DNA from: Paenibacillus sp. JNUCC32
Lineage (GTDB): Bacteria; Bacillota; Bacilli; Paenibacillales; Paenibacillaceae
Assembly: GCF_014863545.1 (NCBI RefSeq)
Contig: NZ_CP062260.1
Span: forward strand, 1,612,001-1,676,000
DNA length: 64,000 bases
Direction: 5' to 3'
Made by a program: the position numbers and the translations under genes. This document shows, one piece after another, positions 38,465-47,030 of the stretch. The notes under the pieces are model-generated. The model did no database searches. It was given only the letters and a program-made list of their open reading frames with translations, and was not told where the DNA came from. Position 1 is the stretch's first letter. Every line of letters starts with the position of its first letter.

Positions 38465-38755
38465 AACACCAAAAAAGGACAGACAGAAGGATAACAAGCC
38501 GTGCCCAAAAAGCCCGCTCGTTGCGTAATCCTTCTGCTCTGTCCTTTGTACCTGAGAGTTACCCCACATGTCATGTTAGTGTTGTGTCAAGCGTGTGTGA
38601 GTTTCCCCGTGGGTGATTCCTTATTCAGAATTCTCTCCAGAGGTGCGTCCGGTAAAGGTCCTTTTGCCTGAGAGATTCACCGTGTGATCCGGCTTACTCC
38701 TTCGGCGCTACCTGTCAGTCTGTCGGTAATCTCTCCCAATACCATCATCCGCGTG
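38465..38755 (-). promoter_or_regulatory. Tandem glycine riboswitch with terminator, upstream of gcvT
   Basis: Read leftward, two aptamers follow one another. The first starts with GGGAGAGATTACCGACAG near 38750 and closes with ATCTCTCAGGCAAAAGGAC (about 38670-38650); the second starts near CTGGAGAGAATTC (38645) and closes with AACTCTCAGGTACAAAGGAC (about 38555-38535). These are the hallmark glycine-aptamer elements. Downstream, GGACAGAGCAGAAGGAT and ATCCTTCTGTCTGTCC pair to form a long terminator ending in TTTTTT (to 38465). Glycine should favour read-through into gcvT. Confidence 0.92.
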
Positions 38756-38904: not shown

Positions 38905-38934
38905 GTGGGAGAATAAGCCAACCGAATATGCGAA

Positions 38935-39182
38935 TGACGATGGATGGGAGAGACCGCTAACGAGTTGGGGATAACCCGAGCGGCACCGAAGGAGCAAACC
39001 GTTATGCCTGCCGGGCTGACGAGTAATCTCTCAGGTAAACGAACCGCCATCCGACGCAGCTCTGGAGAGTGCGCAAGCCACCCAAGGGGAAAGATCGAAC
39101 CGTTAAGAGGCGGCCGATCACAAACTCTCAGGTACCGAGGACAGAGAGAAGGCGAAAGCCTTTTTTCGCGTCCTTTTTTTCA
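38935..39182 (+). promoter_or_regulatory. Tandem glycine riboswitch with terminator, upstream of gcvH
   Basis: A second, independent pair of glycine aptamers. The first runs from GATGGGAGAGACCGC (near 38941) to ATCTCTCAGGTAAACGAAC (about 39045); the second from CTCTGGAGAGTGCGC (near 39060) to AACTCTCAGGTACCGAGGAC (about 39143). A GGAC...GTCC stem enclosing GAAGGC-GAAA-GCCTT, with T runs, follows to about 39182 as expression platform. It faces away from the gcvT riboswitch. Confidence 0.92.
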
Positions 39183-44512: not shown

Positions 44513-44707
44513 TTGGCAAGGGAAAGACGTTGAATGTCCCGGCGCTAAGCCTGCAGCTCGATTGCATGAGCTTTTTATGAAGGTCGCATGAAACTGGATT
44601 CGTATTCCATATTGCAGGGTAATTAGATGTCGGGTCCGCAAGCGGACCTGTTACCAAGGGAAACACTTGTCAGAGACTCATCTACTACATACCAGGAGGT
44701 TCCGATC

Positions 44708-46777
44708 ATGGACAATTCAAATTCCAATTCGAATGTCAACAACAGCAACAACAAGACGAGCAAGGACCAACAGCTGGAACAATTTACGGTAGACAATGAC
44801 GGGAAGAACTTGACCACGAACCAGGGGCTTACGGTCTCTGAGGACGAGCATTCGCTTAAGGCCGGCGAACGCGGTCCGACGTTAATGGAGGACTTCCATT
44901 TCAGAGAGAAAATGACGCATTTCGACCATGAGCGAATTCCTGAGCGCATTGTGCATGCCCGCGGTTTTGGAGCCCATGGTTATTTTCAGTTATATGAATC
45001 GATGAAAGATTATACCAAAGCCAAATTCCTGCAGGATCCTTCCGTCGTGACGCCCGTATTTGTCCGGTTCTCGACGGTGGCGGGTTCCAGGGGCTCAGCC
45101 GATACCGTGCGGGACGTGCGCGGTTTCGCAACTAAATTTTATACGGAAGAGGGCAATTATGATCTGGTTGGCAACAACATGCCTGTATTCTTCGTACAGG
45201 ATGCGATGAAGTTTCCCGATTTCGTTCACGCGGTAAAGCCCGAGCCCCATAACGAGATTCCGCAGGCGCAGTCCGCTCACGATACGTTCTGGGATTTTGT
45301 AGCTAACAACACGGAAAGCGCGCACATGGTGATGTGGGCGATGTCCGACCGTTCGCTTCCGCGAAGCTTCCGAATGATGGAGGGCTTCGGCGTGCATACC
45401 TTCCGTTTCGTGAACGAGGAAGGAAAAGCGCATTTTGTGAAATTCCACTGGAAGCCCGTGCTGGGCACTCATTCTCTCGTGTGGGACGAAACGCAGAAGC
45501 TGGCAGGTAAGGATCCCGACTTTAACCGCCGCGACCTATGGGATGCCATCGACACGGGGAACTATCCGGAATTCGAATTTGGCGTTCAAATGATCGGGGA
45601 GGACGAGGAATTCAATTTTGATTTTGATATCCTCGATCCGACGAAGATATGGCCGGAAGAGATCATTCCGGTCAGAATCATCGGAAAAATGACGCTTAAT
45701 CGCAATACGGATAATTTCTTTGCGGAGACGGAACAGATTGCATTCCATCCGGGTCATGTCGTGCCCGGCATCGATTTTACCAATGATCCGCTGCTGCAGG
45801 GACGTCTGTTCTCCTATACCGATACGCAACTGTCCCGTCTGGGCGGGCCGAATTTCCATGAAATTCCGATCAATCGTCCGATTGCGCCGGTTCATAACAA
45901 CCAACGGGACGGGATGCACCGCATGACCATCAATAAGGGGCCGGTCAGCTATCATAAGAACGGCATTGCGGGCAACACGCCCAAGCCCGTTCCAGCCGAA
46001 CGAGGCGGCTACGAGCATTATACCGAGAAGGTAGAGGGTCGCAAGGTGCAAGCCCGAAGCGACAGCTTCAAGGATCACTTCAGCCAGGCGGCTTTGTTCT
46101 GGAACAGCATGTCCGAGGTGGAGAAGCAGCATATCGTATCCGCATTCCAGTTCGAGCTTGGCAAAGTGCAGCGGAAGGAGATCCGCCAGCAGATCGTCGA
46201 CCTGTTTGCAAATGTGGACAGCGAACTCGCGACAAGAATTTCGGAAGGGTTAGGAACCATTCCTCCCCAAACCAGCGGCTCCGCTTCCAAAGACTCCTCT
46301 CCGGCTCTCAGCATGATGAACACCGTGAAGCTCCCGTTAACGCGCAAGGTAGCTGTGCTTGCAGGCAATGGATTCACGGACGAGCTTCCGTTCGTGCTTG
46401 CGCAGCTTCAGCAAGCCGGCATCATCACCGAAGTGGTTAGCCCGAAGCTTGGCGTCATTACAGGCAAATCCGGCGGAGAACTGGAAGTGAAACATTCGCT
46501 CCTGGGGGCGGATTCCGTGTTATTCGACGCGGTGCTTGTGGCGGGCGGGGCGCTAAGCGTGTCAGAGCTCCTGACGGAGCAGAAGGTGCTGGACTTCATC
46601 AAGGAAGCTTATCAGCATTTCAAACCGATCGCGGCCATCGCCGAAGGAATGAATCTGCTTCCGGCGGCGAGCGGTGAAGGGATCGTGGTCGCTCAAGAGA
46701 ATGAGGATTCGAAGCTGTTCGGCCAAGCCTTCATTGATGCGATTGCGGCACATCGCCATTGGTCCCGAACCATCTAA
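44708..46777 (+). CDS. katE: Large-subunit catalase (HPII-like, with GATase1-like C-terminal domain)
   Basis: Haem catalase of 689 residues decomposing hydrogen peroxide. The catalytic His is in RIVHARGFGAHG, the Asn in GNNMPVFFVQD, and the proximal Tyr in RLFSYTDTQLSRLG. After the core (~30-510) comes a flavodoxin/GATase1-like domain (KVAVLAGNGFTDELPFVLAQL) characteristic of clade 2 large catalases. The N-terminus is a low-complexity Asn/Ser run (MDNSNSNSNVNNSNNK). ATG at 44708 follows AGGAGG by 8 nt, which excludes the upstream extension to 44627. Could equally be labelled katX or katA by some databases. Confidence 0.9.
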   Translation: MDNSNSNSNVNNSNNKTSKDQQLEQFTVDNDGKNLTTNQGLTVSEDEHSLKAGERGPTLMEDFHFREKMTHFDHERIPERIVHARGFGAHGYFQLYESMKDYTKAKFLQDPSVVTPVFVRFSTVAGSRGSADTVRDVRGFATKFYTEEGNYDLVGNNMPVFFVQDAMKFPDFVHAVKPEPHNEIPQAQSAHDTFWDFVANNTESAHMVMWAMSDRSLPRSFRMMEGFGVHTFRFVNEEGKAHFVKFHWKPVLGTHSLVWDETQKLAGKDPDFNRRDLWDAIDTGNYPEFEFGVQMIGEDEEFNFDFDILDPTKIWPEEIIPVRIIGKMTLNRNTDNFFAETEQIAFHPGHVVPGIDFTNDPLLQGRLFSYTDTQLSRLGGPNFHEIPINRPIAPVHNNQRDGMHRMTINKGPVSYHKNGIAGNTPKPVPAERGGYEHYTEKVEGRKVQARSDSFKDHFSQAALFWNSMSEVEKQHIVSAFQFELGKVQRKEIRQQIVDLFANVDSELATRISEGLGTIPPQTSGSASKDSSPALSMMNTVKLPLTRKVAVLAGNGFTDELPFVLAQLQQAGIITEVVSPKLGVITGKSGGELEVKHSLLGADSVLFDAVLVAGGALSVSELLTEQKVLDFIKEAYQHFKPIAAIAEGMNLLPAASGEGIVVAQENEDSKLFGQAFIDAIAAHRHWSRTI

Positions 46778-46789
46778 GAGGAATTGCCC

Positions 46790-46818
46790 TTGAATATATA
46801 GATCAGCTGCGCTATAAT
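46790..46818 (+). promoter_or_regulatory. Promoter of the his-leader/hisS2 unit
   Basis: TTGAAT (46790-46795) and TATAAT (46813-46818) are separated by an ideal 17-bp spacer, directly after the catalase stop codon. The transcript would start near 46825 and include the leader peptide and attenuator. Confidence 0.8.
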
Positions 46819-46857
46819 TCCCCTTAATCAATGGCTCAAAGTGAAGGGGATTATGAC

Positions 46858-46905
46858 ATGAACAGCATCAAATCGAATCAACTTCATCATCACAAGCAGC
46901 GTTAG
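46858..46905 (+). CDS. His-codon leader peptide of the attenuator
   Basis: A 15-codon frame encoding MNSIKSNQLHHHKQR, with GAAGGGGA 7 nt before the ATG. Three consecutive His codons (CAT CAT CAC, 46885-46893) lie immediately before segment A of a multi-hairpin attenuator and upstream of a histidyl-tRNA synthetase gene. This is the classical arrangement by which ribosome stalling at scarce His-tRNA controls termination. No T-box consensus is present, though T-boxes are what one expects for such genes in Bacillota. Confidence 0.7.
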   Translation: MNSIKSNQLHHHKQR

Positions 46906-47003
46906 CACGCCTGTAAATCTACAGGGCGGGCTAACGCTGTTCGCGTTGGCCTCCCTGCCGCATACCAAGCGCGCGGGACCATGAGGTCCGGCGCGTTTTT
47001 TAT
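46897..47003 (+). promoter_or_regulatory. Histidine attenuator with intrinsic terminator
   Basis: Competing helices can be seen: A:B is a perfect CAGCGTTAGC/GCTAACGCTG pair (46897-46906 with 46930-46939); B:C pairs GCTAACGC with GCGTTGGC (46944-46950 region); C:D pairs GCGTTGG with CCAAGCGC. The terminator is CGCGCGGGACC-ATGA-GGTCCGGCGCG (46970-46995, one mismatch) followed by TTTTTTATTTT. A CCCTGCCGC segment (46953-46961) can also pair with the terminator's left arm as an antiterminator. The A-to-F logic is like the E. coli his leader; exact switching needs folding. Confidence 0.65.
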
Positions 47004-47030
47004 TTTCTCGGAACGAAAGGATGAGCAGCG

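Follow-up and report, generated by a model that had tools for sequence, protein, structure and literature searches.

The region directly upstream of the second histidyl-tRNA synthetase gene (hisS2) of Paenibacillus sp. JNUCC32 raises the question of how this gene is controlled. T-box riboswitches control histidyl-tRNA synthetase (HisRS) in response to uncharged tRNA-His. A preliminary description, made from the sequence alone, had read the region as an E. coli-like his leader-peptide attenuator.

In this study, we analyzed the locus in a window of 64,000 nucleotides, by which we mean the whole stretch of DNA under study (NZ_CP062260.1, positions 1,612,001 to 1,676,000, forward strand). Related genomes were used to follow the element and its leader codons, and the RNA was folded with the ribosome at different positions on the leader.

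Materials and methods

Genomes, elements, and alignments

We searched 295 genomes from the GTDB family of this strain for hisS2 at a threshold of E 1e-100 or better, and upstream regions were taken for 82 of the 83 genes obtained, one truncated match (G160) being left out. The alignment comprised 92 elements, namely 80 found by a search anchor, 11 named loci chosen from 24, and L135 from another family; merging of identical rows gave 89 distinct sequences, and L057 and L102 are not among the 92. A covariance model (R1) was built on this alignment. For an extended set of 116, 27 elements were added, 26 of them from elsewhere in the genomes and one being L227; L211, L216, L224, and L226 were omitted on sight, and L212 for want of a simple T run. 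At class level, 398 genomes were surveyed with NF009085 at E 1e-110 or better. A covariation scan with our own script and free G-U pairing was discarded as too noisy.

RNA folding

The ribosome footprint was modelled as 12 nt past the first A-site base, based on toeprints 15–16 nt from the A of the P-site AUG as reported in PMC6851288. For the partial-RNA test, the RNA was folded through the 5′ arm of the terminator (segment E); its values are equilibria of a shorter RNA and not a kinetic simulation.

Results

The two histidyl-tRNA synthetase genes

The preliminary description had placed a second histidyl-tRNA synthetase downstream of the element, and this was borne out: the hisS2 protein scored 623.7 bits against NF009085/PRK12420 (cut-off 540), and its residues 4–414 align to solved HisRS structures with 6nhi as the best. 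Another HisRS-like frame of the genome, 434 aa long and 30–31% identical to hisS2 in matched pieces, is taken as the canonical hisS. Directly 5′ of this other gene lies a T-box match of 76.2 bits (E 2.7e-16), which is below the Rfam cut-off of 93, and a T-box core is readable in the sequence there. Genome-wide, the T-box model RF00230 gave 31 matches at E 0.001 or better, 11 of them above the cut-off; at the hisS2 locus the search gave no T-box match, in agreement with what had been claimed. Rfam His_leader (RF00514) was not listed at the hisS2 leader up to E 10. The relaxed Rfam search around the leader (E up to 10) returned only five chance hits of snoRNA/miRNA type, which were dismissed. 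Elsewhere in the window, glycine riboswitch aptamers were seen on both strands between 38537 and 39056, two on the minus strand (38537–38748) and one on the plus strand (38934–39056).

Layout of the locus

Of the parts that had been described, a promoter-like site, a Shine-Dalgarno-like site, the 15-codon leader with HHH, mutually exclusive hairpins, and a terminator hairpin are present between 46790 and 47001 (Table 1). Just upstream of the promoter-like site, an ORF of 716 aa (44627–46777) stops. Two promoter-like sites in 400 bases were counted at the locus versus 0.8 in shuffles. Across the aligned leaders, a promoter-like pair with at least 8 of 12 matches lies upstream of 90 of the 92 (the best in a 100-base stretch; no control run), and 91 of the 92 have a loose Shine-Dalgarno-like motif with an in-frame start (again, no control run). 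An alternative start of the leader is possible at an in-frame ATG at 46831.

Table 1. Features of the hisS2 upstream region; positions are those of the window
Feature	Position	Strand	Basis
Promoter-like site TTGAAT-17-TATAAT	46790..46818	+	10/12 consensus matches
Leader Shine-Dalgarno-like motif GAAGGGG	46843..46849	+	sequence
Leader ORF MNSIKSNQLHHHKQR, ATG at 46858, stop TAG, 15 codons	46858..46905	+	sequence, conserved
Three His codons CAT CAT CAC, the first 14 nt before stem A	46885..46893	+	conserved
Segment A, GCGTTAGC (from the end of codon -2 through the last Arg codon to the stop)	46899..46906	+	A:B helix
Segment B, CAGGGCGGGCTAACGC, partner A or C/D	46922..46937	+	
Segments C/D, CGCGTTGGCCTCCCTGCC, partner B, or C with F and D with E	46942..46959	+	
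Segment E, terminator 5′ arm, CGCGCGGGACC	46970..46980	+	
Segment F, terminator 3′ arm, GGTCCGGCGCG	46985..46995	+	
Terminator U tract, T6	46996..47001	+	sequence
hisS2, class PRK12420 histidine--tRNA ligase, 428 aa	47031..48317	+	NF009085 above cut-off

The RNA of 46858–47030 folds with -66.6 kcal/mol (z -4.39), none of 200 shuffles being as low; the apical part of segment A extends to 46913, and the terminator hairpin spans 46970–46995. A simple terminator scan of the locus listed no terminator, probably because of one internal G-G mismatch in this stem. When the 64 kb were divided into 2548 overlapping stretches of 300 bases, 10 of these had a short ORF holding HHH, which corresponds to two places, and HHH alone could therefore be due to chance.

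Conservation of the element

hisS2 was found in 83 of the 295 family genomes. The search anchor recovered the element in 80 of the 82 upstream regions; that of L102 is visible by eye, and in L057 the element is absent adjoining the gene and present 756 nt upstream of hisS2. In L227 (G279), about 750 nt were noted between element and hisS2. The model R1 gave 114 matches in 105 of the 295 genomes. A match within 1 kb of hisS2 exists in 83 of 83 genomes, 80 of these being in the model alignment and thus matching by construction, and 31 of the 114 matches lie elsewhere than at hisS2, all of them outside the model alignment. In the genome of strain JNUCC32 itself no clear second copy was found, the two other hits overlapping the locus on the minus strand (E 0.04 and 0.12). 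Judged by these comparisons, the putative element is conserved before the hisS2 genes found in the GTDB family, and chance could not account for the conservation of a predicted HHH leader at this place.

Codons of the leader

An alignment of the leaders had been proposed as a check, and it supported the His-leader reading: at least one His codon is present in 92 of the 92 leaders, the first one at codon -6 relative to the stop in 72, at -7 in 17, at -5 in two, and at -4 in one. In 89 of the 92, the first His codon thus lies 6 or 7 codons before the stop, at a distance of 14 or 17 nt from stem A. Among the endings directly before the stop are QLHHHKQR, QLHHHHKQR, QLHYYHKQR, QLHHYKQR, and QLHHFTKR. 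At positions -6 to -4 (264 codons of 88 leaders), the codons other than His are 33 Tyr, 12 Phe, one Arg, and one Ile; replacement of His by Tyr or Phe codons is seen in several clades of alignment A1. Single His codons dominate at -4 (CAC in 67 of 68) and at -6 (CAT in 80 of 80).

Gln stands at -8 in 69 of the 92 leaders (CAA 46, CAG 23) and Lys at -3 in 77 (AAG 49, AAA 28), and a residue kept with both codons at these positions fits translation of the candidate leader. The conserved Gln, two codons 5′ of the usual first His, was also seen before Nudix-like genes. The K-x-R end is replaced in some clades by T-K-R, I-K-R, or E-K-R. Two apparent rules were dropped, one that codon -2 always ends in G, since the anchor requires this G and the anchor-missed L102 has A, and one that the first His codon must of necessity leave stem A free, since pauses at -7 to -2 fold much alike.

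Competing helices and covariation

The segments form a five-segment ladder, in which A pairs with B, B with C/D, D with E and C with F (together the rod), and E with F (the terminator). In the lower A:B helix 711 of 712 cells are paired, a count that is partly built in because the search anchor fixes most of the A side, though not B. On the 89 distinct rows, A:B plus rod reaches 94.9% pairing and shows 8 doubly changed pairs, compared with 2.4 in shuffles (none of 500 as high), and B:CD plus E:F is 92.8% paired; for the latter combination an excess of covariation was looked for in the same set and not found. Rod columns 81–116 (0-based) hold TA in 72 rows, TG in 11, and CG in 6, and columns 82–115 (0-based) hold CG in 81, AT in three, TA and GT in one each, with three unpaired. 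As these two co-varying rod pairs sit in the loop columns of E:F, they cannot stem from the terminator. The three changes of L135 fall in B, D, and E and preserve both B:D and D:E.

In the extended set of 116 elements (300 shuffles), doubly changed cells numbered 42 for A:B (shuffle maximum 20), 32 for B:CD (maximum 26), and 24 for C:F (maximum 14), counts in which related sequences enter one event repeatedly; doubly changed pairs were hardly above the shuffles (A:B 5 vs 4.0, B:CD 5 vs 4.4, C:F 3 vs 2.7). The arms of E:F are nearly invariant save for one internal pair, which is mismatched in 46 of the 89 sequences, and the D:E pair sharing the E base of this pair is intact in 89 of 89. The mean energies of the two states are near balance (-48.6 kcal/mol for A:B plus rod and -45.5 kcal/mol for B:CD plus E:F), A:B plus rod being lower in 59 of the 89.

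Ribosome position and folding

Full-length equilibrium folding was rejected as a test of direction, since the E. coli hisL control gave the terminator in all nine states; the direction therefore rests on the partial-RNA test. For E. coli hisL, partial-RNA folding gives the accepted picture: the terminator arm is paired upstream with 0.55–0.58 when the ribosome is on the first four His codons, with 0.51, 0.51, and 0.30 on the last three, with 0.09 at the stop, and with 0.04 without ribosome. By the same measure, the elements have 0.61 without ribosome, 0.61–0.62 at A-site positions -8 to -2, and 0.45 at -1 and the stop, and the element of the window falls from 0.67 to 0.39.

Pairing of the D core with E above 0.5 was obtained without ribosome in 83 of the 92 elements, with the A site at -7 to -2 in 85, 85, 85, 89, 90, and 89, and at -1 and the stop in 47 and 46. 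For the element of the window, D core:E is 0.93 without ribosome, 0.92, 0.91, 0.93, and 0.93 with the A site at -7, -6, -5, and -4, and within 0.91–0.97 overall up to -2, falling to 0.25 at -1 and 0.22 at the stop. Measured by a single D:E pair, the counts are 77 of 92 without ribosome, 80 of 92 at the first His codon, and 28 of 92 at the stop. Folding with and without a ribosome had been suggested for this locus, and a dependence on ribosome position was found; the antiterminator is favoured also without ribosome. The default state is probably the difference from E. coli in these calculations, with a ribosome on the last codon or the stop as the putative off signal. When the RNA extends through D only and the ribosome stalls at the first His codon, equilibrium favours B:CD, and A:B exceeds 0.5 in 5 of 92.

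At full-length equilibrium, the terminator has a probability above 0.5 in 92 of the 92 elements with the ribosome at the stop, in 70 without ribosome, and in 57 with a stall on the first His codon; with the ribosome on the last His codon, E:F forms in 91 of 92, though D:E forms in the partial RNA. For the element of the window, the full-length terminator probabilities are 0.13 without ribosome, 0.11 at the first His codon, and 1.0 both at the stop and at the last His codon. Only 36 of the 92 elements gain more than 0.2 in this probability when the ribosome moves from the first His codon to the stop. By these figures, most members need kinetic trapping under the mechanism proposed below.

Other leader classes and other downstream genes

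In the class-level survey, NF009085 was found in 33 of the 398 genomes. Eighteen loci of genus g41, presumably Brevibacillus, have leaders ending in QHHHT, QHHHG, LHHHH, or LHHHD before the stop and a different RNA sequence. In this second class, D:E exceeds 0.5 in 17–18 of the 18 leaders with the A site at -5 to -1 and in 2 of 18 at the stop; without ribosome this holds for only 7 of 18, and at full length E:F wins. Of 151 genomes of a further family, 26 have hisS2. A third class of His leaders was found in 27 of 27 loci (these 26 and L127 of another family); in 21 of these 27 (L127 counted), the first His codon lies 16 nt ahead of the stem. In the third class, looked at by eye and by consensus fold only, A:B and E:F were found in the 27 loci and no clear D:E. 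The loci L125, L126, and L163–L186 of this class have the stem AGUCUUGCUAU/AUAGGAAGACU. In each group opened, hisS2 was preceded by a putative His-codon leader, in at least three apparent RNA designs.

The 31 matches away from hisS2 were grouped largely by eye. Fourteen precede Nudix-like genes of about 157 aa with starts like MAIMTDSKGNIFLEF (L207–L210, L213–L215, L217–L222, and L225, the gene of L210 being interrupted); Pfam gave NUDIX in L213, the one such protein that was run, and in this group the leader stop is mostly UAA with segment B changed to match. Three (L198, L205, L212) lie before an orphan protein of about 130 aa, for which no Pfam match was found, and one (L223) before an N-acetyltransferase-like gene (PF00797). 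Three more (L202, L204, L206) precede short HisRS-like genes, of which L202 scores weakly to NF009085 and L204 not at all. Tyr-rich leaders (..YYHF..) and a second downstream ORF, methyltransferase-like on visual inspection, were noted at the same three loci. Six matches are, by eye, diverged or interrupted hisS2 copies, L201 being assigned by position and leader only, and four are partial.

Discussion

Proposed mechanism

Taking these results together, we find it rather probable that hisS2 is controlled by a transcription attenuator read by the ribosome that translates the His-rich leader, finishing of the leader being the OFF signal and histidine starvation preventing it. A:B (46899–46937) would form while the RNA emerges; with A:B standing, D would be free to catch E and C would catch F, and with this rod in place no terminator E:F would form and hisS2 would be transcribed. 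A ribosome finishing the leader would sit on the UAG inside stem A and open A, upon which B would take C/D, leaving E free, so that E:F would form and transcription would end. When charged tRNA-His is scarce, the ribosome would pause on the His codons and never reach the stop, and hisS2 would stay on. Of this mechanism, sequence and computation supply the conserved leader, the helices that compete, and a D:E pairing that changes with ribosome position; we infer in addition that the rod does not terminate, that uncharged tRNA-His causes the pausing, and that the RNA folds fast enough to follow RNA polymerase. Against finishing as the OFF signal stands that 46 of the 92 members still have D:E above 0.5 at the stop, and the mean arm pairing of 0.45 there, versus 0.61, is not near zero.

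The classical his/trp logic, in which stalling on the His codons places the ribosome over A and B:C/D acts as the antiterminator, would explain the tandem His codons just 5′ of the first hairpin, the ladder, and the terminator, as in E. coli hisL. We consider it unlikely, since masking of A gives a B:CD pairing that leaves E free, with E:F formed at full length in 92 of 92 (ribosome at the stop) and 91 of 92 (last His codon), and since the footprint at the first His codon reaches to about the start of stem A; the full-length calculation gives the terminator in all nine hisL states as well, so that only the partial-RNA test discriminates here. An arrest peptide, sensed by its aromatics (His, Tyr, Phe), its Gln, and the C-terminal K-x-R and not only by its codons, possibly with a drug, appears quite unlikely. 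The substitutes for His at -6 to -4 being almost only Tyr or Phe, the Gln at -8 and Lys at -3 kept as residues with both codons, and the RYR arrest motif reported for the B. subtilis tlrB leader (PMC6851288) speak for such a peptide, but every one of the 92 leaders contains a His codon, and K-x-R is swapped for T-K-R, I-K-R, or E-K-R in some clades.

The rod, whose end adjoins the U tract, might be a terminator too, in which case hisS2 would be controlled at the level of translation or through some other rod-reading factor. This alternative, which accords with the rod being the stem directly 5′ of the U tract, seems very unlikely to us, as rod (by paired changes) and E:F are both kept, which is hard to explain if both had the same output. 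Since the 716-aa ORF ends just before the promoter-like site, the hairpin could also be the terminator of that upstream gene, or the leader could be unregulated with an incidental ladder; the promoter-like site and Shine-Dalgarno sequence between ORF and terminator, the element occurring with hisS2 in 83 of 83 genomes and before unrelated genes too, and the covariation make this extremely improbable.

Returning to control by the finishing ribosome, we give about an even chance to the wider reading of a reverse-default attenuator, in which finishing makes the terminator and starvation or missing translation gives readthrough, as a device that is portable in the Paenibacillaceae before hisS2 and other genes. 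Under this reading, the device would serve hisS2, the Nudix-type gene, the orphan of about 130 aa, the N-acetyltransferase-like gene, and the shortened HisRS-like genes, some with mixed His/Tyr/Phe codons. The candidate element would thereby place genes whose role is unknown under the influence of histidine supply. Tight coupling between ribosome and RNA polymerase is regarded as a requirement of leader-peptide attenuation, and such coupling is doubted for Bacillota; if the proposed mechanism is true, an on-by-default ladder switched off by the finishing ribosome would tolerate late ribosomes differently.

Comparison with known systems

The T-box (RF00230) is found on the other hisS of this genome, with a match below the cut-off, and has no match at hisS2; this suggests that a single genome uses a T-box for hisS and a leader peptide for hisS2. 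With E. coli hisL (L228; RF00514), the element shares that ribosome position on a His-rich leader picks the hairpin, but it has no Rfam match, and the computed state without ribosome is the opposite. In E. coli his/trp-type attenuators, the first hairpin leads to termination without translation. Here the arm pairing without ribosome is 0.61 versus 0.04 in hisL, while the full-length terminator still forms in 70 of 92, so that this departure is a computed and not a final one. From the E. coli-like his attenuator of the preliminary description, the His leader-peptide attenuator is thus retained, and the likeness in default state and to Rfam His_leader is not.

In 2010, a His leader peptide was predicted before a Bacillus hisS paralogue (hisS*) and hisZ (Naville and Gautheret, PMC2965389), and the kind was therefore already known. 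These leaders of bacilli are alike in having a His-codon leader and a terminator with the canonical hisS under a T-box, and unlike in that they were found by terminator screening with no ladder worked out in the section concerned (PMC2965389); Paenibacillus is absent from the main text of that paper, and the hisS*/hisZ leaders are compared here by description. His-leader attenuators of his operons were reported for the Bacillus cereus group, Eubacteriales, and Erysipelotrichales (Ashniev et al. 2022, PMC9413887), likewise with 3–5 consecutive His codons and terminator plus antiterminator in Bacillota, but they control his operons, the term hisS being absent from that text, which lists the Paenibacillus his operon under HisR control. 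The B. subtilis tlrB (yxjB) leader also combines ribosome stalling on a leader peptide with attenuation in Bacillus, but it is drug-dependent, and its authors report that they identified no overlapping antiterminator (PMC6851288).

Among the matches listed in the open-access literature, to which the search was confined, no Paenibacillus hisS2 leader and no reverse-default ladder was found. Relative to the open-access literature covered, the organism group and the RNA are new, and the kind is known. Like the known leader-peptide transcription attenuators, the locus has an ORF with cognate codons and mutually exclusive hairpins with a terminator; according to the folding calculations, its switch logic is probably reversed in its default.
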